Below are positions 428 through 19,220 of a stretch of DNA of 20,412 bases, one piece after another. The notes beneath the pieces are model-generated. The model had not been told where the DNA came from and ran no database searches. It worked only from the letters and a program-made list of their open reading frames with translations. Position 1 is the first letter of the stretch. Every line of letters starts with the position of its first letter. The position numbers and the translations under genes are program-made. The stretch spans positions 1-20,412 of the IMG/VR virus record IMGVR_UViG_3300036466_000094; one strand, given 5' to 3'. This DNA is from a virus.

Positions 428-736
428 TTACCCTTTGATTTTTGCTTCGCGGATTTCTTCGCGGTCTATTGGTACATACTTTTCAGCTTGAAATGCCAAT
501 TTAACGCATCGTGTGTTTGCTTCAACAGTAGTAATATATATGTCTTCAATATCGTTGAGGACTACGTGGAAAATCCGGCTATCTATGCGCTTAATTGTTA
601 CATTTCCCTTTTCGCGAAATGATAAAGTGCCATTGCCAGATGTATCTACTACTGTAACTGTGACTTGATGTTCGCCACTACCAATAAAAACCGACTGTCC
701 CGCATTTCTACATAAAACTAAATTTCCATGTGCCAT
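428..736 (-). CDS. CsrA-like RNA-binding translational regulator with internal insertion
   Basis: The two ends match bacterial CsrA/RsmA, a small dimeric protein that binds GGA motifs in mRNA leaders and controls translation. Residues 6-31 (LVLCR, then GQSVFIGSGEHQVTVTVV) correspond to CsrA strands 1 and 2. Residues 75-97 (TRCVKLAFQAEKYVPIDREE) correspond to strands 3 to 5. The two RNA-contacting arginines of CsrA appear conserved as R10 and R92. Between the halves, about residues 33-74 are an insertion absent from ordinary CsrA, which is about 60 residues long. The usual TRR/TRK is CRN here. The start has AGG about 9 bases upstream. Whether the protein targets host or phage mRNA, or titrates host sRNAs, cannot be told. 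The CsrA assignment rests on motif resemblance read by eye. Confidence 0.72.
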   Translation of the reverse strand: MAHGNLVLCRNAGQSVFIGSGEHQVTVTVVDTSGNGTLSFREKGNVTIKRIDSRIFHVVLNDIEDIYITTVEANTRCVKLAFQAEKYVPIDREEIREAKIKG

Positions 737-798: not shown

Positions 799-1014
799 TT
801 AAATTAATTGTGTGCTTGGTTCGATCATCATTAGAAATTGATTAAATCCACCAACATTAACTACTTTAGCTTTGACATTGCCGTCACCATCAACGAAGTC
901 ACAACAACCATCTTTATTATTTACTTGAGTTAGTTTACCAACATTAATCATAACATGCAAATCATATTCCGAGATTACTATACTTGTCTCGATTTCGCGT
1001 TGTTCTTCGTTCAC
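799..1014 (-). CDS. Hypothetical protein, about 71 residues
   Basis: This small acidic protein, with no recognised family, overlaps the 3' end of the primase gene in another frame. The frame is open from a TTG at 1038, but that codon has no nearby ribosome binding site. I prefer the GTG at 1014, which has AAAAGG about 7 bases upstream; an ATG at 951 is a third possibility. The middle of the protein (KDGCCDFVDGDGNVKAKVVNV) looks like a beta-hairpin segment with two adjacent cysteines. It sits between primase and the CsrA-like gene on the same strand and is likely co-transcribed with primase. Confidence 0.6.
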   Translation of the reverse strand: MNEEQREIETSIVISEYDLHVMINVGKLTQVNNKDGCCDFVDGDGNVKAKVVNVGGFNQFLMMIEPSTQLI

Positions 1015-2281
1015 TTGTGCACCTTTTCCATTTTCCAAATTCTAGATTAGCCTCCATACCATAGTATGTATTATTTCGGATAATCTCGTTAAGTTGAAAT
1101 TCAGTAAGACCCAATTTGAGGATCATATCATTGCCATCATATTTTTCGGGAATTGATTTTGGCCAAATAACGATTTTTTCACCATTGTCAATTGCACGTT
1201 GCATCCTTTTACAAATGTCGACATTGCGAGGTTCATTATCATATATTAGCACATAATCATCAAAATATGAAGCCGGATTTGCATCGGCTCCGGCCATAGC
1301 CACCGCATTAACTCCAAAAAGTGAGTCAAGCGGCCCTTCCCATACTTGGACAATTTTATTAAAGTCTATTCGTTCAAGTCCGTAAATTTTCGGAAAATCA
1401 TCGTCACACTTAATCGAAAAATACCTTATTTTGGCATCTTTCGAAAATGACCGACCTTGGATCATCATCAATTGGCCATCCTTATCATAAAAAGGAATGA
1501 TCAATCGTGGTTCTTCGAAGTTTTCCACCATAAACGGTTTAAATGAATCAGGCTTCCACTCATTGCACCATGTATAAAATTTCCATACCAGATACATTTT
1601 ATCATAAAAACGTTCCGGTATCTTTCTTTTTTCGAGATATTTGCGCGCGCCGTGCGTTAACGGAAGGTCACATATTTTACGTAAATCGCCCATTTTAGGT
1701 CGTCTAACATTTGAAAAATCGTCTTCGAAGTCGGACAAGTCGGGAATTTCGAGTGCAATTTCACTATGTCCGGATTTAGCTCGGTTAGCGAATGGGCTTG
1801 TGGATACGTATTCAATGTGTGTTTCGCAATCGTCGTTAGACTCGTTCCCCTCGGTAGGATCCTCCACGTATATACTTTCATCTTCATCATGTTTTACCTT
1901 TTTAAATTGTGGTTTGCTAACGATGTCTAGAAATTCATCATCGTCATCTTTTGGTTCCGGCTTTTCATCAATAAAATCATTTCGCTTAATTCCACGCATT
2001 GATTCGAAAATATACTCTTCGTATAAATTGTGGTCGAAGTCTTTAAGCCATGATTGAAATGAACACGCTTCACCGTGTAATCCACCACAATTATGACACA
2101 CAAATGAATATCCAGTGCGTTTTTTATTGACGTAAAAATAACCGCGCTTTTTCGACTGGTCTTGGTGTGAATCGCCACATATATTACACCGAAAATTATA
2201 AGCTCTGGAACCTTTGGCCCCAAACCGATTTAATCTTCGACCTACTTGTAATATATATTGTTGGTCTAATTGTAAACTCAT
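962..2281 (-). CDS. 61: DNA primase (T4 gp61-like)
   Basis: Primase makes the short RNA primers for lagging-strand synthesis and works with the gp41 helicase. An N-terminal zinc ribbon uses C32, C35, C62 and C65 (FRCNICGDS, then FVCHNCGG), very close to T4 gp61. The TOPRIM core follows: EPRLIIPFYDKDG at about 258-269, IYGLER at 299-304, EGPLDS at 315-320 with E315 and D319 as metal ligands, and YDNEPR at 347-352. At 439 residues it is about 100 longer than T4 gp61. The extra length is mainly an acidic, low-complexity linker at about residues 100-195 between the zinc ribbon and the catalytic core. The ATG at 2281 has GAGG six bases upstream. The 3' end overlaps the next small gene. Confidence 0.95.
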   Translation of the reverse strand: MSLQLDQQYILQVGRRLNRFGAKGSRAYNFRCNICGDSHQDQSKKRGYFYVNKKRTGYSFVCHNCGGLHGEACSFQSWLKDFDHNLYEEYIFESMRGIKRNDFIDEKPEPKDDDDEFLDIVSKPQFKKVKHDEDESIYVEDPTEGNESNDDCETHIEYVSTSPFANRAKSGHSEIALEIPDLSDFEDDFSNVRRPKMGDLRKICDLPLTHGARKYLEKRKIPERFYDKMYLVWKFYTWCNEWKPDSFKPFMVENFEEPRLIIPFYDKDGQLMMIQGRSFSKDAKIRYFSIKCDDDFPKIYGLERIDFNKIVQVWEGPLDSLFGVNAVAMAGADANPASYFDDYVLIYDNEPRNVDICKRMQRAIDNGEKIVIWPKSIPEKYDGNDMILKLGLTEFQLNEIIRNNTYYGMEANLEFGKWKRCTSERRTTRNRDKYSNLGI

Positions 2282-2346: not shown

Positions 2347-2811
2347 ATGGCTTCAGATGACGCTCGATTGGCTATGGTCGAAAAGCAGACAGAAACCAAC
2401 TCTAGCTTACTAACTACAATGGGCGAAACCATGATTCAACTACGCATTATTGCTGAGTCGAGTCAGAAATTACTAGAAATCCATGACAAAGGTATTGCTG
2501 AGTTGCACCGTCGCGAAACTGAACGTGAACACCGTAACGACAATCGACATGATCAATCCGTAGAAAAATTCCACGAAACTCAATTACGATTGGAACAACA
2601 ACACGCAGAAGATTTAAAATTAATCCAAAGTGCGTTGGCATTATCACAACAATGTAATGATGCAGTTGTATCTAACACAAAAAACGATGAAAAAATGGCT
2701 ATCCGCATAACCCATCTTGAAAATTACAAGTGGAGGTTTGCTGGTATTATTAGCACCATAATTTTTGCATTGTCAATTGCAGTACCTTACGCATTGAAGG
2801 TTTTTGGTTAG
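2347..2811 (+). CDS. Tail-anchored coiled-coil membrane protein (XhlA/holin-accessory-like)
   Basis: This is the only plus-strand gene of the window. The frame is open from an ATG at 2314, but that ATG falls at the predicted transcription start. I choose the ATG at 2347, which has CAGGTA about 8 bases upstream and gives 154 residues. Most of the chain is charged and helical, a likely coiled coil with many E, R, H and Q residues. It ends in a basic-aromatic boundary (YKWR), one hydrophobic segment of about 20 residues (FAGIISTIIFALSIAVPYAL) and a short tail. This layout resembles XhlA-type phage proteins and holin-associated proteins, and a late promoter fits a role at lysis or in the envelope. 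The family match is by architecture only. The stop overlaps the stop of the facing gene by four bases. Confidence 0.75.
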   Translation: MASDDARLAMVEKQTETNSSLLTTMGETMIQLRIIAESSQKLLEIHDKGIAELHRRETEREHRNDNRHDQSVEKFHETQLRLEQQHAEDLKLIQSALALSQQCNDAVVSNTKNDEKMAIRITHLENYKWRFAGIISTIIFALSIAVPYALKVFG

Positions 2812-3281
2812 TACAGTCCATCGCTTTTGCAGTCCTTTATAACTTCCATAACAAATCTCAAACAGGTATGAAATGATATGCCAACTATGTTAAGATTTTT
2901 CGGAACGTCCATACTGAGGGTTAAATGCGGTTTGAATTCTTCATATTGGCATTTAATCCCTTCTCTTTCTAGTTCATCGCGTCTTAATTCCATTTCTTTG
3001 GATTCAAACACAATAACAAGTGCATATTTTACCCCATAGCCCTTATCGGTTAATGGCCAAATTTCCAACTTGTAATCAGACACACTAATGTCACAATGTG
3101 GCTTCGGTGTAATTCTGGCCGTCTTGTTCATAGAGTGAATTAATGTGCAATGTAAATGATTTGATGATACTGGATGTTGGAGTCTCAAATAACGAGAAAG
3201 TTCCCCAACAATTATTTTTGTTGATCGATCGGGAATCAAAGATACAAAACACCCGCTGACCTTTGTCACCCAATCATTCAT
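2808..3281 (-). CDS. acb1: 2H phosphoesterase, Acb1-like anti-CBASS protein
   Basis: The protein has the two HxT motifs of the 2H phosphoesterase superfamily, HCT at residues 44-46 (in LHCTLIHS) and HLT at 119-121 (in KPHLTLSMD). They are spaced as in Acb1, the enzyme of T4 (gene 57B) and related phages that hydrolyses the cyclic nucleotide signals of host CBASS immunity. Length (157 residues) and the N-terminal pattern (GCFVSLIPD, then HPVSSNHLHCT) also fit Acb1 as I remember it. The TTG at 3296 is rejected. The ATG at 3281 overlaps the upstream stop as ATGA, indicating coupling, with GGGA about 10 bases upstream. Other 2H enzymes, such as 2'-5' RNA ligase-like phosphodiesterases, remain possible. 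Confidence 0.75.
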   Translation of the reverse strand: MNDWVTKVSGCFVSLIPDRSTKIIVGELSRYLRLQHPVSSNHLHCTLIHSMNKTARITPKPHCDISVSDYKLEIWPLTDKGYGVKYALVIVFESKEMELRRDELEREGIKCQYEEFKPHLTLSMDVPKNLNIVGISFHTCLRFVMEVIKDCKSDGLY

Positions 3282-3523: not shown

Positions 3524-3555
3524 GATTTTAATTCTCCACTTTAGTGTATGTATTA

Positions 3556-3590
3556 AGGATAGCAAAAAGGCCTGCATGATGCAAGCCTTA
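3556..3590 (-). terminator. Hairpin terminator fused to a putative extended -10 promoter, copy 1
   Basis: On the minus strand a hairpin (AAGGCTTGC, loop ATCAT, GCAGGCCTT; 3567-3589) is followed by a T run, a good intrinsic terminator for the gp41 unit. One stem pair is G-U in minus-strand RNA but would be a C-A mismatch in plus-strand RNA, so the stem is kept for minus-strand transcripts. The same DNA reads as a promoter: TTGCAT (3579-3584), 17 bases, then TGC and TATCCT (3556-3561). A second copy lies at 19185-19220. The terminator is firm; the promoter is inferred. Confidence 0.8.
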
Positions 3591-3610: not shown

Positions 3611-4063
3611 TTATTTAACTTTAAAGATTTTACCACCATCGGATGGCTTCCCGCGCTTGACCCAATCTTCAGAACGACGAACAACAGTTTTAGCCACTAA
3701 CTCCAAATCGCCGTTTTTGTCTTTAACAAACGTGAATGGAATATTGAGTCGATTTGACACTTTCAAGAAATGTGCATCTTCTTTATCGCGCAAACCTTTC
3801 AATTTGTCCTGATTAGTCCGGAAGTTTTCACGGAATACATCGCGCAATTGAGCAACTGTGATTGGTTCATCTTTATTGCGTTCATCATTAACGCGTTCTA
3901 AAAAGTGTCTGGTAAACTCAACATCAATATCGAGTTCTTTAAATAAACTATCTAGGTATTTCTCAAGCTGTTTTAATTGACTTGTTGAAACACTTTCATC
4001 AAGAATATAGTTTTCGTTAATATCGCGCGCGATATTCATTACATGGTCGAATGATTTACCCAT
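3611..4063 (-). CDS. Conserved phage protein of unknown function, 150 residues
   Basis: The protein has a mainly helical N-terminal half and a conserved-looking central motif, HFLERVNDERN, around residues 53-63. It ends in a segment (FVKDKNGDLELVAKTVVRR) that I associate with a recurrent domain in T4-like marine phages, whose function I do not know. The start is uncertain. A TTG at 4072 lies only two bases after AAAGG, so I prefer the ATG at 4063, with AAGG 11 bases upstream. It follows the gp41 gene on the same strand after 35 bases and ends just before the terminator at 3567-3589, so it is probably the last gene of the gp41 transcript. Confidence 0.72.
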   Translation of the reverse strand: MGKSFDHVMNIARDINENYILDESVSTSQLKQLEKYLDSLFKELDIDVEFTRHFLERVNDERNKDEPITVAQLRDVFRENFRTNQDKLKGLRDKEDAHFLKVSNRLNIPFTFVKDKNGDLELVAKTVVRRSEDWVKRGKPSDGGKIFKVK

Positions 4064-4098
4064 TATTGACAATACCTTTATTTGTAGACTACTTATAT

Positions 4099-5535
4099 TT
4101 ATTCGAAAACAAAGCCATTAAAATCAGGAACTGCCGTTTCAAGTTTGGCCTTTTTACCAAATTGTGGGGTCTGCATGGCGGCTTCTAATACATCCTTTTG
4201 AGATTTAGATTCAGCTTTACCCATAATTGATATATTGTCCTGTGCGCTTTCTTCTGGGTCATATAATCGCATTTTAGCACGATTGATACCAACAACAAAT
4301 TTATCCCCATCCCCACCAATAGCACCATAACGGTTTTTCAACTGTTTGTACATGATCAAGTTTTGCTCATCAAGTTCAGGTGTTGTGATTGCTGCGATGA
4401 AGAAATCCGCGGTCGCTGGCAAACCAAAACTTTCGGACGTATTTTCCAAACCAACATCACTATCAGAATAACCTGAACGGTTTGTCTGTGTTGCTGACCA
4501 AATTGGGACATCAAATTCAACAGCAAGGCCGCGAATTTCTTCTGCAATAGACTTTACTAATGTATATGAATTTTCACCGCCACGACAACGAGAACTCGCA
4601 CAAATGTTAAGGTAATCGATATAAATGATATCAGCCTTAAAATCTTTCTTGAGTGACAATTCACGTAATAAATGCCTAAAATGACCAGCATGTGCACTGG
4701 CAGTTGGGTATTCTTTGATGATCAGTCGGCCGGACGTTTGTTGTTTAATTGCGTTGATTTTACGGACATACTCTTCGCGATCCATATCCTTAAGATAGTC
4801 CATTTCGCAATCCAACATATTAGCATCAATACGTTCGGCGACACGTTCTTCTGATAATTCAAGTGTGATGTAAAGTACGTTTTTTCCGGCGAATAAATTG
4901 GACGCGGCAAAATGACACATCGTACCGGATTTAAAGCCACCAGTGCCACCCATAATAATATTTAGAGTTTTGTTCGGAGTACCGCCTTTGGTAATCTTAT
5001 TAAAATAATCAATATCAAATGGAACACGTTGTAACGCTTCATTATAGAAATCATATCGACATTCGGCGTCTTCTAAAAAATCATGACCGATTGACTGATC
5101 AAACGATATAGATAGCGATTTTTGCAATAGTTCAGGCAATGAATTGACGGTCATTTCTTTGTCTTCGCCACGCACAATCATAATAGAACGTTGGATCGCT
5201 AATATTAAATCACGCTCTTTGCACCACGATTCAGTTTCATCGGTTAGCCAATCTTTTTCAATTGTTTCATTTTTACGTGAATCCATTTCGACTAATAAGG
5301 TTCTGGATTCTTGATAAATTTCGTCGGTGATATCATCGCGTTTATTAATTGCGATTCCAATGGCATCAATCGACGGACTCTTATTGTATTTTTCTACATA
5401 TTGGCTTAATGCTTCATAGACTATTCGGTGTGAATCTTCTTCAAAATAACGGAGTTCAATATGTGGAATAACCCCGCGCATATAATCATCATTATACAAG
5501 CAACCTTGTATAATGCTGTTTGTGATATCGGACAT
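4099..5535 (-). CDS. 41: Replicative DNA helicase (T4 gp41-like, DnaB family)
   Basis: The hexameric helicase moves 5' to 3' on the lagging strand and recruits primase. At 478 residues it matches T4 gp41 (475) along its length, with shared blocks such as SISFDxxxGHD, RIDANMLD, GRLIIKEYPT, DYLNICxS and ESFGLPATADF. The Walker A loop at about residues 195-202 reads GGTGGFKS, so the usual glycine before the lysine is phenylalanine. Walker B is IIYIDY (T4: IIIVDY), and SATQTNRS corresponds to the T4 AAQ segment. AGG lies 7-8 bases before the ATG at 5535, inside the end of the upstream gene, so the two are coupled. It probably belongs to the transcript started at the promoter at 5881-5909. Confidence 0.96.
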   Translation of the reverse strand: MSDITNSIIQGCLYNDDYMRGVIPHIELRYFEEDSHRIVYEALSQYVEKYNKSPSIDAIGIAINKRDDITDEIYQESRTLLVEMDSRKNETIEKDWLTDETESWCKERDLILAIQRSIMIVRGEDKEMTVNSLPELLQKSLSISFDQSIGHDFLEDAECRYDFYNEALQRVPFDIDYFNKITKGGTPNKTLNIIMGGTGGFKSGTMCHFAASNLFAGKNVLYITLELSEERVAERIDANMLDCEMDYLKDMDREEYVRKINAIKQQTSGRLIIKEYPTASAHAGHFRHLLRELSLKKDFKADIIYIDYLNICASSRCRGGENSYTLVKSIAEEIRGLAVEFDVPIWSATQTNRSGYSDSDVGLENTSESFGLPATADFFIAAITTPELDEQNLIMYKQLKNRYGAIGGDGDKFVVGINRAKMRLYDPEESAQDNISIMGKAESKSQKDVLEAAMQTPQFGKKAKLETAVPDFNGFVFE

Positions 5536-6095: not shown

Positions 6096-6163
6096 TAGCC
6101 ATGTATTTTATTCCTTTCACTGCGTTCAATCCCTTCGGGAACACGGAATAAAATACATGGCTA
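6096..6163. repeat. 19-bp perfect inverted repeat with 30-base structured loop
   Basis: The left arm TAGCCATGTATTTTATTCC (6096-6114) and the right arm (6145-6163) are perfect complements. The 30-base loop between them is GC-richer and contains an inner hairpin (TCCC, TTC, GGGA). It begins 22 bases past the polymerase stop. No T run follows on the minus strand, so it is not an obvious terminator. It may protect the 3' end of the polymerase mRNA, be an RNA element, or be the trace of a mobile or template-switch event. Confidence 0.85.
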
Positions 6164-14505: not shown

Positions 14506-14586
14506 TTAAAGTTTATTCATAGCTGCGATGAGTGCATCTTTGGGGGTTTCTCCCCATTCGGTGCCAAGATCCTCATCGCCACTTAC
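14506..14586 (-). CDS. C-terminal extension of the AAA+ ATPase in the -1 frame
   Basis: If ribosomes slip back one base on A-AAA-AAG at 14586-14592, they bypass the TAA at 14583 and add 26 residues, ending at the TAA at 14506-14508. The added tail runs from VSGDEDLGTEWGE to TPKDALIAAMNKL, an acidic stretch followed by a likely amphipathic helix, and has the look of real protein. The frame has no start codon of its own before its last few residues, so it is not an independent gene. A 560-residue product would result alongside the 534-residue one. Confidence 0.65.
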   Translation of the reverse strand, partial: VSGDEDLGTEWGETPKDALIAAMNKL

Positions 14587-14592
14587 TTTTTT
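14525..14592 (-). promoter_or_regulatory. Putative -1 programmed ribosomal frameshift signal
   Basis: The slippery heptamer A-AAA-AAG (14586-14592) is in the correct phase with the ATPase frame and is directly followed by its TAA stop. Six bases after the heptamer begins an 8-bp perfect stem, GCGATGAG (14572-14579) with CTCATCGC (14525-14532). Inside it are further pairings, ATCTTGG with CCAAAGAT (one bulge) and GGGG with CCCC around AGAAA. Heptamer, stop, spacer and hairpin are arranged as in the bacterial dnaX signal. Confidence 0.72.
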
Positions 14593-16187
14593 GCCATTAC
14601 ACCAGCGGCCGCGGCACGCGCATCTCGACTAGATGGTTGACGTGATGCTTTGGCTCGTTCAATTTCGATCTGTTCATCAACGGCTTGATACAATTTGGCA
14701 AATGAAGTTCGAGTCTCTTCGTTGAAACGTTCAACACCGACTTTAATTGCACGTTCCCGCGCACCAAATATAACAAATGCCTTTAATATATCAACACCAC
14801 GTCGAGTCGAGATAACATCATTTGTAGCACCAGATTCATGGCTCTGTCTGACAATATCACACCATTTAACCATACGCGAACAGAATTCACTATCGCTACT
14901 ACTTAGCTCGTTGCCGCCATCATACACAAATCTAAAATGTGCTAATGCAGTCTCGAAAATCTTAAGTTCGACTTTTGGTGATGGGTATGGATTGTGAAGC
15001 ATAATTGGGAATCGATCTAAAAATGCTTCGTTTAATATTTTTGTTCCGGCAAACTTGCCAACTGTATCACCTTGACCCTTTGTATTAGCGGTTGCGAATA
15101 CAGTGAACCCATTAACAGGTTTGACAACTTCACCAGTCTTTTTAATCAATACGGGTTTACCGGATAATACAGATTGTAAACATGACAATTTTGATGATCC
15201 ATAATCGATTTCATCTAACAGTAATGGACAACCGCGGCGCATTGCAATAACAACTGGGCCATCTTGCCAAACTGTATTCCCATTCACCAATCGGTAACCA
15301 CCTAACAAATCATCTTCGTCGGTTTCTTCGGTGATATTGACAATTAACAATTCTTTATTGAGTTCGGCACATGCCTGTTCAATACCTAATGTTTTACCGT
15401 TGCCAGATAGTCCGGTAATGTATGCTGGATAGAACATATTTCGTTCTAAAATCTTGACAATATCGGCATAAATCCCCCAACGGATGAACAATTTATCAAT
15501 ATCCGGAATATAAAAACCTTTTGGTTTTGGTGGGACATTGTGAACATCTTCTTTAGTGTTGAACACTTTTCCAAATGCACTTGCTAACTTTTCAATTGTA
15601 TCATCATCAATGCCACCAAAACTTAATGGCGATGAATCTGGCAATGGTTGGTGTGAATATGGTGATACCATCGTATTATCTAATAATTGGCTTTTAGTGT
15701 TACTAAAATCCGGAAATTCATCATCAAGATCGACGGTATTTGCTGGTTTTCCACTTGAAGTTTCAAAATCCATAAGTTCCTCTTTTGGTTCTGGTGCACC
15801 AAGTGGACACCACGGAGTATAATCGTCAGAAAAATCGTGTAAATTTTCACCAATTCTTCGTTCATGAACGGCCCAACGTGGGATATTGTGGCCATGTATA
15901 AGTTTTAGATCTTTGAGTTGTTGCGATGTGATAATAAGACTTTCATGATGTAATAGTATCTTATCACGTACAAACCCAAGTTCAAGTTCAGAATAACTTT
16001 TGTGTCTTTCATAATCCAATTCGGTGCCAATATAATATTCACCAGAACCGATAATACAAAATCCGTAAACCCAAGCTGGCACCTTAAATTCAGTTACCGA
16101 TTTCAATTCATCATACGAAATCAATTCTTTACCAAAATGCTCAATTAGCATGTTGGTTATTTTTGTATACTCTGGTGATATAATCAT
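14583..16187 (-). CDS. MoxR/CobS-like AAA+ ATPase
   Basis: The C-terminal half is an AAA+ module of the MoxR/CobS type: Walker A GLSGNGKT (259-266), Walker B PLLLDEID (321-328), sensor 1 ATANT (365-369) and arginine finger LDRF (390-393). The N-terminal 230 residues are unrecognised, with an acidic, proline- and serine-rich linker at about 140-190. Such ATPases act as hexamers with a von Willebrand A partner to insert metals or remodel proteins, and the VWA partner is two genes upstream. T4-like marine phages often carry a gene called cobS, but a role in cobalamin synthesis is not shown. The ATG at 16187 overlaps the previous stop by one base (TAATG). The gene ends in the frameshift signal at 14525-14592. 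Confidence 0.9.
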   Translation of the reverse strand: MIISPEYTKITNMLIEHFGKELISYDELKSVTEFKVPAWVYGFCIIGSGEYYIGTELDYERHKSYSELELGFVRDKILLHHESLIITSQQLKDLKLIHGHNIPRWAVHERRIGENLHDFSDDYTPWCPLGAPEPKEELMDFETSSGKPANTVDLDDEFPDFSNTKSQLLDNTMVSPYSHQPLPDSSPLSFGGIDDDTIEKLASAFGKVFNTKEDVHNVPPKPKGFYIPDIDKLFIRWGIYADIVKILERNMFYPAYITGLSGNGKTLGIEQACAELNKELLIVNITEETDEDDLLGGYRLVNGNTVWQDGPVVIAMRRGCPLLLDEIDYGSSKLSCLQSVLSGKPVLIKKTGEVVKPVNGFTVFATANTKGQGDTVGKFAGTKILNEAFLDRFPIMLHNPYPSPKVELKIFETALAHFRFVYDGGNELSSSDSEFCSRMVKWCDIVRQSHESGATNDVISTRRGVDILKAFVIFGARERAIKVGVERFNEETRTSFAKLYQAVDEQIEIERAKASRQPSSRDARAAAAGVMAKK

Positions 16188-16465
16188 TATGAATACTCTG
16201 TTAATATTGCATCTAAATTTTCAACACAAATATAATTTGCATGTTCGCGTTCATTATCATGGCGACGGCCAATCGCGCGCCATTCTGCTAATTTTGCCTT
16301 GAACATAATAATTCTTCGGCGTAATTCTGGCGAGTCCGACGGATCCAATTTCAAATCGTCGTGGCCATCTAGGTTCAACTCCGGCATAATTCCGGTTTTG
16401 TCAAACTCCTTACTTTGTGCAATTAATGCAGTAAGTAAGGTATCAAAAAATTCATTAAATTCCAT
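16187..16465 (-). CDS. Hypothetical protein, 92 residues, between VWA and AAA+ genes
   Basis: The family is not recognised. The protein is helical and highly charged: a hydrophobic N-terminal helix (EFFDTLLTALIAQ), a central segment rich in aspartate (LDGHDDLKLDPSDSPE), then a basic helix (RRRIIMFKAKLAEWRAIGRRH). Its start overlaps the end of the VWA gene by 11 bases, and its stop shares a base with the ATPase start. It is therefore co-translated with both and may be a third subunit or adaptor of the AAA+/VWA machine. That role is inferred from position only. Confidence 0.82.
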   Translation of the reverse strand: MEFNEFFDTLLTALIAQSKEFDKTGIMPELNLDGHDDLKLDPSDSPELRRRIIMFKAKLAEWRAIGRRHDNEREHANYICVENLDAILTEYS

Positions 16466-19034
16466 CGTTTGTCATCTTCTTTGATATCGTTGTGAGTAGT
16501 GTATCAGCCAAAACTTTTATTTGCAACATCTTTTTCGACTGTTCTATGAATTGAGTTGCAATACTGTTCATTGATTTAGATGAATCTAATGATAGTTCAC
16601 ATTCAACATCTCGGTCTAAACTGAAAATAATACTATCATTTCCAATAACTCCGGTTGCAGTTGTGCAATTTTGCTTTTTCAATAATCCCAAATGAGTATC
16701 GATTTCACTTCTAGGAAGTAACATTTCAATCATCATGTTCAAAAACGCACTGGCACCAATATACAAGGTTATTATCGAAGAATCAACACGATCACGATAT
16801 AAATCTGTAATAATTCGAGATAATACGATTCTAGAAGTATCATTTGGTTTAACAATATAATCATAACTTGAATATTTTTTCCTAGTTAATTCGTCATGTA
16901 TGATGAAATTATCCCGACCTCGATAATCTAACCCAATTTTAGCATCACCAGCCATACCATCGGTCAATAACATGGTACTCATAATCTCAACTGAGTGCGC
17001 TTCCTTCCACTCTTTGATAACTTGTGATGCAATCACCAATGCTTCGTTAGTTGGTGTACCCTCGAAGCGCTCACACGGCGTGATGCCATATCTAGCACCA
17101 CTATTATGTGACATCGCTTCACGATATAAATTCCGCATGATTTGGCGTTGGGTTAACATCGGCAAGTCTGAATTTATAATTTCACGTAGAACAACACGAT
17201 CAACGGATAAACTTGTCAACGAACTATCATTTTTATATTTGCCAATTTTCAATGGTATTTCAATGTTTTTAACACTGCGGTAATTATAAACCGATTGGTT
17301 TGTAAACCCATAAACAACATATGGAATATTGACCGACTGGCAAAACATGATCATGATTAATGTTTGTCTCCACGTTTGATACATTCTACTACCGGACATT
17401 GAGCCGGAAAAATCCAATAATAATGCAATTCCGTGATTTTTGCCATCTTCTACCATTGAACATGATTTGAAAATGTCTTCACTTATGCTATAAAATGCCA
17501 ATTTCTTGAGGTCTAACCTTCCAGTTTTTGCGGTACGCACCCGCCGAGACTCCGCGGCATTCTTGCGTAAATCAAACATCTGTTTCATTATTTCAATGGT
17601 TTTGGCCTCATTCTTTTGGAACTTGATCCATTGATTATTAATAGTTTTTATGGTTCGTGGTTCATCTCTTATTATTGATGCATTCCATGAAGTGTGCACA
17701 ACTTTGGCCGGATCCACGAAATCCTTTGGATTTAGTAGATTTCGAACTGCCAAATTTTTGATATCTTTCGCGTCCAAATCAACTTCATTATCCGCGATTG
17801 CATTTGCAAAGTTGGATATAGATTGAATTACGTTGGGTTGGTCTTGATTTGATGATTCATTACCACCATTTTCGATTAAGCTCCCGTCGAGAGTATCGGA
17901 TACTTCATCGCTGGAATCAGAATCCCCCGCATTACTTCCAGATCCATCGTCGCCTGATCCATCTTCGGATCCATCTTCGGTATCGTCATCAGATCCAGAT
18001 TCATCAGTGGCGTCGTTGGCATCCTCGGCATCGTCACCATCTTGGTCGGCATCTTCGTCGGAGTAGTCGGCATCATCATCGTCATCATCTTGGTCTGATC
18101 CGATCTCATTGCTTTTTTGATGATCTGGTGAATCTTCGTCTTGTTCATCATCGATTTCGGATCCATCTGTACCCGAGTTTTCAGAAACGTCGTCGTCGTC
18201 GCTGTGTTCATCTTCCAATCCATCTTCGGAATTATCAGATCCACATGATTCATCTTCGGCTTCATCATCTTCGGATTCGTCTTCGTCGGAAGTGTCACCG
18301 GAACTATCATCGGCTTCATCGAGTTCATCAGTCTCTGAATCATCGCCGTCGTCGCTTGGCTGTCCGGCGTCGTCGTCATCACAATCATCGGTGGATTCTT
18401 CCGGTTCATCGTTGGGTTTAGATTCATTTTGTTGTTCCTCATCTTTCTTGCGTTGTTCCTCATCTTTCTTGCGTTGTTCCTCTTGCAAGTATTCGATGAT
18501 ATCACGAGCCAATACACACGCATCTTTAAACGATTCAACTTTATTCAAATCATTTTTAAATGTGGTTTCAATTGGTGACATTGGAATGTCGATCCACGGT
18601 AATTTTGCCGAAATATTAAGTTTATCAACAAGATTGATATTTCCTAGATCTTTGCCACGTAGACCAAAATAATCACGATCCCAAAACTCTAGATACATTC
18701 GAGATAATGTACTTACTAAACCGGGGTATTCTATTTTTAGGAATTTGGCGGTACGTGCTTGTTCAACCATTTGGATGATTTGGCCATAACCTTCATGCAT
18801 ACCTTCTAATTTAGATTTTATTGATAGGAATTTTACTGGTGGTGTCCATAATGCGTGCGCAACTTCACTGGCCATCATTCCATCGAAAATATCACCTTCC
18901 ATCTCTTTGTAAACTGGTAGGCTTAATATTCTTTTATTCAAATCAAAATGTGCAGCAGTTATGCCACCTTCATGGATAATAGTAATGTCTTCTTTAGCTA
19001 ATAATTTAGCAAGAATACTAGTTGTTGCTGTCAT
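16455..19034 (-). CDS. CobT-like protein: degenerate peptidase-like N-terminus, acidic linker, VWA domain
   Basis: Three parts can be seen. Residues 1-180 contain SEVAHALWTPP (56-66) and MVEQARTAKFLKIEYPGL (89-106). These resemble the HExxH helix and the third-ligand helix of metallopeptidase-like domains in phage VWA proteins, but the first zinc histidine is serine here. Residues about 200-385 are an extremely acidic D/E/S-rich linker. The C-terminal VWA domain has an intact metal site, DFSGS at 541-545 with LLTDGMAG later. CobT of aerobic cobaltochelatase likewise has an acidic linker before a VWA domain, and such proteins work with an AAA+ partner, here at 14583-16187. GAGG precedes the ATG at 19034, which overlaps the upstream gene. 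The target of this machine is unknown. Confidence 0.85.
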   Translation of the reverse strand: MTATTSILAKLLAKEDITIIHEGGITAAHFDLNKRILSLPVYKEMEGDIFDGMMASEVAHALWTPPVKFLSIKSKLEGMHEGYGQIIQMVEQARTAKFLKIEYPGLVSTLSRMYLEFWDRDYFGLRGKDLGNINLVDKLNISAKLPWIDIPMSPIETTFKNDLNKVESFKDACVLARDIIEYLQEEQRKKDEEQRKKDEEQQNESKPNDEPEESTDDCDDDDAGQPSDDGDDSETDELDEADDSSGDTSDEDESEDDEAEDESCGSDNSEDGLEDEHSDDDDVSENSGTDGSEIDDEQDEDSPDHQKSNEIGSDQDDDDDDADYSDEDADQDGDDAEDANDATDESGSDDDTEDGSEDGSGDDGSGSNAGDSDSSDEVSDTLDGSLIENGGNESSNQDQPNVIQSISNFANAIADNEVDLDAKDIKNLAVRNLLNPKDFVDPAKVVHTSWNASIIRDEPRTIKTINNQWIKFQKNEAKTIEIMKQMFDLRKNAAESRRVRTAKTGRLDLKKLAFYSISEDIFKSCSMVEDGKNHGIALLLDFSGSMSGSRMYQTWRQTLIMIMFCQSVNIPYVVYGFTNQSVYNYRSVKNIEIPLKIGKYKNDSSLTSLSVDRVVLREIINSDLPMLTQRQIMRNLYREAMSHNSGARYGITPCERFEGTPTNEALVIASQVIKEWKEAHSVEIMSTMLLTDGMAGDAKIGLDYRGRDNFIIHDELTRKKYSSYDYIVKPNDTSRIVLSRIITDLYRDRVDSSIITLYIGASAFLNMMIEMLLPRSEIDTHLGLLKKQNCTTATGVIGNDSIIFSLDRDVECELSLDSSKSMNSIATQFIEQSKKMLQIKVLADTLLTTISKKMTNDGI
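18431..18482. repeat. 21-base tandem repeat in the VWA gene
   Basis: The unit GTTGTTCCTCATCTTTCTTGC occurs at 18431-18451 and 18452-18472, with ten bases of a third copy. It encodes a repeated EEQRKKD heptad just before the acidic linker, extending a charged helix. The two full copies are identical in DNA, pointing to a recent slippage duplication. Confidence 0.9.
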
Positions 19035-19158: not shown

Positions 19159-19184
19159 GACTACCTCCAATAATCTATACATTA

Positions 19185-19220
19185 AAGATAGCAAAAAGGC
19201 TTGCATGATGCAAGCCTTTT
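19185..19220 (-). terminator. Hairpin terminator fused to a putative extended -10 promoter, copy 2
   Basis: AAAGGCTTGC, loop ATCAT, GCAAGCCTTT form a perfect hairpin followed by T runs on both strands, so it can stop transcription of the 55-residue/TM2 unit and perhaps in the other direction. As in copy 1, the minus strand also reads TTGCAT (19208-19213), 17 bases, TGC and TATCTT (19185-19190), a candidate promoter for the AAA+/VWA unit. Identity with copy 1 runs through the hairpin and about 15 bases beyond. Confidence 0.82.

Follow-up and report, generated by a model that had tools for sequence, protein, structure and literature searches.

The gene at positions 2,808 to 3,281 of the window, by which we mean the whole stretch of 20,412 bases that was analyzed, is very probably a deeply divergent acb1 encoding a small 2H phosphoesterase that linearizes CBASS-type cyclic di- and trinucleotide signals. 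Acb1 cleaves such cyclic nucleotides 3' of adenosine in a metal-independent reaction, by which the phage is protected from CBASS. The window protein adds a new and very divergent member to this known family: family, predicted fold and catalytic tetrad are direct observations, while the substrate class, mechanism and anti-defence role would follow by analogy with the characterized T4 and FBB1 enzymes. Most likely the protein is active as a cyclic-oligonucleotide phosphodiesterase, and its preference among bases should not be taken for granted. Acb1 is a characterized phage enzyme that erases CBASS signals, and its need for adenine has been traced to a single residue; a natural family member that keeps the active site intact and has a lysine there would put this explanation to a direct test, and could reveal whether phages adapt Acb1 to signals of other kinds. 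This pocket change is the single point here that a specialist would care about.

Table 1. The acb1 locus and its surroundings, in positions of the window
Feature	Position	Strand	Basis or remark
DNA primase, downstream landmark	962..2281	-	PHROG 47, 209.5 bits
acb1 homologue, 157 aa	2808..3281	-	ATG 3281, stop codon 2810-2808; Pfam PF23474 59.9 bits, PHROG 755
C-terminal residues 150-157, where Acb1 has its lid	2811..2834	-	T4 W147 not matched by a Trp
Lys149, likely at the position of T4 Glu141 (adenine N6 contact)	2835..2837	-	alignments; last strand 141-150 in the model, 133-142 (T4 numbering) in the T4 control
Met124, at the T4 Tyr118 position	2910..2912	-	Tyr in 86/86 relatives
HxT motif 2, H119-L120-T121, catalytic	2919..2927	-	T4 H113/T115; H and T in 86/86 relatives
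HxT motif 1, H44-C45-T46, catalytic	3144..3152	-	H and T in 86/86 relatives
Small upstream ORF, 81 aa	3278..3523	-	probable ATG 3523, start inferred from sequence; no family match
Terminator-like hairpin and T-run	3567..3589	-	between ORF 3611-4072 and the small ORF-acb1 pair
gp41-like replicative helicase, upstream landmark	4099..5535	-	PHROG 19, 372 bits

Family assignment and predicted fold

A sequence-only reading of the window had proposed Acb1 from two HxT motifs at residues 44-46 and 119-121 and from their LHCT and PHLTLS contexts. Motifs and contexts are all there, in the minus-strand frame that opens at ATG 3281; the reading had named no strand, and the plus strand of the same interval carries many stops. 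By themselves, the two motifs are weak evidence for Acb1: pairs of HxT motifs 50-90 residues apart arose in 24 of 2,000 shuffles of the protein, and paired H.[TS] motifs occur in 5 of the 37 stop-to-stop frames of at least 100 aa in the window. The score of the whole protein, however, is far above chance: a profile built from 86 relatives, with the query left out, gives it 85.4 bits, compared with 7.5 bits for the best of 2,000 shuffles.

Family searches likewise assigned the protein to Acb1. The Pfam Acb1 model (PF23474) matches residues 11-151 with 59.9 bits, above its cut-off of 27; known members score 202.7 (T4), 196.7 (FBB1) and 58.2 bits (BcepSauron). The sole match in a sequence search of the PDB was FBB1 Acb1 (E 5.8e-6), and an NCBIfam search returned no match. 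A weak PADLOC match to AriA (E 0.037) was taken as chance.

An AlphaFold model built with 60 relatives (pLDDT 89.8, pTM 0.83) predicts a compact 2H fold with a U-shaped pocket. In VIA-align, this model was closest to the FBB1 Acb1 structures 7t26 (Z 18.5, rmsd 1.7 Å, 137 residues aligned) and 7t27 (Z 17.9, rmsd 2.0, 138 aligned), followed by 9q2y and 9q2g, which the PDB lists as Anti-CBASS protein Acb1 (Z 16.7 and 16.0), and by the best chain of LigT (Z 11.7, rmsd 3.6). Foldseek gave the same family order of FBB1 Acb1, BCSR5 Acb1 and LigT. A stronger resemblance to RNA ligases or to another 2H family, which would have pointed away from Acb1, was looked for and not found. The identification as Acb1 draws on the family profile, the PDB sequence search, the predicted fold and the intact HxT/HxT tetrad.

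These comparisons also bear on a rival reading, in which the protein is a 2H phosphoesterase of the Acb1 fold that in nature acts on RNA, at ends or linkages such as 2',3'-cyclic phosphates and 2'-5' bonds, or on some other small cyclic phosphate, instead of on a CBASS signal. Such a reading could appeal to the label of PHROG 755, to which the protein is assigned and which is called 'RNA ligase'; to the fact that LigT and cellular 2H enzymes have the same fold (Z about 10-12); and to the loss of the adenine contact and lid Trp described below. The label is no argument against Acb1, because T4 57B, the founding Acb1, and FBB1 Acb1 fall in PHROG 755 and receive it too; it does mean that annotation can conceal an Acb1 beneath the name 'RNA ligase'. 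The protein scores 13.8 bits with Pfam LigT_PEase and 11.9 bits with 2_5_RNA_ligase2, under their respective cut-offs of 23.3 and 27, and although E. coli LigT (5ldi), an RNA 2',3'-cyclic phosphodiesterase, shares the 2H superfamily fold, the Acb1 crystal structures rank well above it. We therefore regard an RNA-type substrate as unlikely.

Relatives of the protein are numerous and distant. A tblastn search of 50,697 phage records found 1,038 with a match at E <=1, all below 60% identity, and those among the matches listed are mostly T4-like phages, several of them with the gene annotated as 57B. With the first 13 phage Acb1 sequences that were aligned, the protein shares 19-25% identity (24% with T4 and 21% with FBB1 Acb1, which are of similar length, 152 aa against 157 aa here). 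In a tree of 87 rows the window protein has the longest end branch (2.64) and the forks are weak, and we draw no kinship from the tree. Scans of viral contigs with the Acb1 protein alone, and with the sliding clamp and DNA polymerase of the window, revealed no close relative; a search of genome contigs found one relative, in Sphingobium. Acb1-like domains were also seen fused to phage structural proteins: one of the relatives (L047, 284-1519) joins a Pfam Acb1 domain (78.8 bits) to a Mu F-like protein, and the A2 profile matches the portal protein of Pam3 (PDB 8hds) in its C-terminal part (E 5.4e-15).

The active site is intact and the nucleotide pocket is partly altered

The passages of Hobbs et al. 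(PMC9117128) on the T4 pocket give H44/T46/H113/T115 as the catalytic tetrad, Y12, W74, F107 and W147 as the residues that stack on the bases, E141 as the base-specific contact to adenine N6 and residues 145-152 as the C-terminal lid; the paper reports that changing nucleotide-coordinating residues disrupts the enzyme. In an alignment with 86 relatives the tetrad of the window protein is complete (H44, T46, H119, T121), and G10, S50 and P118 are also retained. The sequence-only reading had held that missing pocket residues would weigh against Acb1, and here the result is divided. Aromatic residues remain at three of the stacking positions, with two of the three letters changed (Y12, W74 and F107 correspond to F12, W75 and Y113), but neither the Glu that contacts adenine nor the Trp of the lid is kept: the former is likely replaced by Lys149, and the Trp147 column holds Gly155, two residues before the C-terminal Tyr157. 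Further differences from T4 and FBB1 Acb1 are Tyr118 to Met124, Tyr49 to His49 and a loop at about residues 79-84 that is 4-5 residues longer.

The two lost residues are variant positions rather than family-defining ones, because many relatives are without them too. Glu stands at the Glu141 column in 69 of the 86 relatives and is missing from the other 17, Trp occupies the lid column in 59, and both are missing in 8. A Lys at the Glu141 column was found in only two relatives (L040 and L047), and a search of the literature, covering running text, found no description of Lys at this position of Acb1. The relative of BCSR5 Acb1 in BcepSauron keeps the tetrad and, like the window protein, is without Glu141, Trp147 and Tyr118; its 58.2 bits with Pfam Acb1 are accompanied by a score above the 2_5_RNA_ligase2 cut-off, below which the window protein stays. 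BCSR5 Acb1 itself, from a Burkholderia phage (9q2g, 9q2y), shares its fold with our model and differs in the C-terminal region; a literature search for a paper on the BCSR5 phosphodiesterase found none.

That the gene is an Acb1 in decay, or already inactive, would be in keeping with the long branch, the loss of the equivalents of Tyr118, Glu141 and Trp147, and a lid that is short and modeled with low confidence. The 157-codon frame is nevertheless open, the four catalytic residues are kept together with G10, S50 and P118, the predicted fold is of high confidence, and the 8 relatives that also lack both Glu141 and Trp147 have open frames as extracted. We judge decay to be very unlikely. The closed-lid structure 7t27 aligns to the final residue of the model, Tyr157, which might stand in for the lid Trp, in a part of the model (residues 154-157) where pLDDT is below 50.

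Since the claim for Lys149 rests on the register of the last strand, we compared several lines of evidence for it. Lys149 stands opposite Glu141 in four MAFFT modes, that is, in every alignment mode tried. Pfam coordinates (query residues 11-151 to profile positions 3-137, T4 residues 9-150 to 1-144) fit an offset of 8 between the two proteins, and so does the structural alignment, which ends at model residue 152 and residue 137 of the 7t26 chain, where chain residue 1 was taken from the sequence alignment to be FBB1 residue 9 and the offset is in T4 numbering. The last strand of the model spans residues 141-150, and the last long strand of a control model of T4 Acb1 (L046, pLDDT 91.3) spans 132-141, equal to T4 residues 133-142. 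A register with Glu146 at the Glu141 place, by analogy with one relative (L020; 'YIVEPL' against 'FVMEVI'), was rejected, as MAFFT, the Pfam coordinates, the structural end and the modeled strands fit offset 8. HMMER per-residue confidence drops at the C-terminal end and the structural alignment is known from its ends only; the equivalence of Lys149 and Glu141 is likely rather than proven, because profile confidence is low there.

Proposed function and nucleotide range

In the mechanism that we favor, the window Acb1 would capture cyclic di- or trinucleotide signals from CBASS-type defences and position a 3'-5' phosphate over the H44/T46/H119/T121 tetrad; attack by the ribose 2'-OH, with no metal needed, would then linearize the ring, and the CBASS effector would stay off. 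Against this explanation stand the 19-25% identity, the longest branch of the tree, the loss of Glu141, Trp147 and Tyr118, the lack of a match in NCBIfam and a gene position that is not that of T4. In its favor, PMC9117128 reports cleavage of 3'3'-cGAMP and cAAA by T4 Acb1 as well as by nine other homologues; the T4 enzyme requires at least one adenosine.

The sequence-only reading had asked about the nucleotide range of so divergent a form, and the partly altered pocket makes this question well founded. With Lys in the likely place of the Glu that contacts adenine, and with no Trp in the lid, the enzyme probably departs somewhat from T4 Acb1 in its base preference. A more far-reaching possibility is that the enzyme has been retuned to cyclic signals that T4 Acb1 spares (such as cGG, or rings of uridine and guanosine only), either against adenine-free CBASS signals or so as to spare adenine decoys such as that of Panoptes. 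Here the acceptor Glu141, which reads the amino group of adenine, would have given way to a Lys donor suited to the carbonyls of guanine or uracil, along with the altered lid. Such retuning strikes us as unlikely. Panoptes is a defence system that produces 2'3'-c-di-AMP and responds to the removal of this molecule by phage proteins; two papers (PMC12657218, PMC12657230) disagree on the extent to which T4 Acb1 triggers the system during infection.

A second position of acb1, among replication genes

The window is a complete IMG/VR record, probably a genome fragment. Its assigned genes lie nearly all on the minus strand and form, by PHROG matches, a T4-like replication block of primase, gp41-like helicase, DNA polymerase, dNMP kinase, dUTPase, RegA-like repressor, both clamp loader subunits, sliding clamp, and CobS- and CobT-like proteins. 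For the DNA polymerase, the best among the matches listed are Synechococcus phages at about 36% identity, and megablast of the window against the phage collection gave no DNA match, which together point to an unplaced T4-like lineage.

Within this block, acb1 is placed between the gp41-like helicase and the primase and not beside gp1/57A, whereas in T4, FBB1 and relatives it comes after gp1 and, where annotated, 57A. Among 80 viral-contig loci, the fetched flank held a match to gp1 or 57A in 38, to gp41 or primase in 7 and to neither in 35. The gp41-acb1-primase order of the window recurs in two of these seven, and so in two of the 80 fetched loci, L092 and L076, both from uncultured phages in IMG/VR, so that acb1 has a second position, among replication genes, in some uncultured T4-like phages. 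Over the matched part, the helicases of L092 and L076 are 52% and 46% identical to that of the window. L076 retains Glu141 and Trp147, and L092 has Gln and Phe at the positions where the window protein has Lys149 and Gly155; the tree gives no support for either as its sister.

Directly upstream of acb1 lies a small ORF, for which we prefer ATG 3523 because the listed start at 3577 would lie within a terminator-like hairpin. The TGA of this ORF overlaps the ATG of acb1 as ATGA, which suggests coupled translation, and with the hairpin ahead of the pair the two genes are probably one short unit. Terminator-like sites as such numbered 4 in 6 kb, against 4.1 expected from shuffles. Family searches of the window identified no counter-defence gene among the neighbours of acb1.

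Further observations in the window

The hairpin belongs to a 48-nt element present in two copies between genes (3542-3589 and 19171-19218, 88% identical, 15.6 kb apart), both of which contain, on the minus strand, a hairpin with T after it; the element may be a repeated terminator whose flank is conserved. On the plus strand, an ORF at 2314-2811 runs against its neighbours, tail to tail with acb1 and with a 4-bp overlap, and encodes a 165-aa protein that is rich in charged residues, has a hydrophobic C-terminal segment and gave no convincing PHROG or Pfam match. At 428-736 (-), a 102-aa CsrA-like protein (PHROG 9500, E 4.5e-9) matches its family over residues 64-99 only, with a weak match of the N-terminal part to a different regulator family; it is apparently a CsrA with a long insertion. 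The CobS-like ATPase (PHROG 249) and the CobT/peptidase-like protein (PHROG 459), the latter with a long acidic stretch, occupy 14583-19034 (-) and adjoin the sliding clamp. Finally, a perfect 19-nt inverted repeat with a 30-nt gap (6096-6163) directly follows the stop codon of the DNA polymerase.
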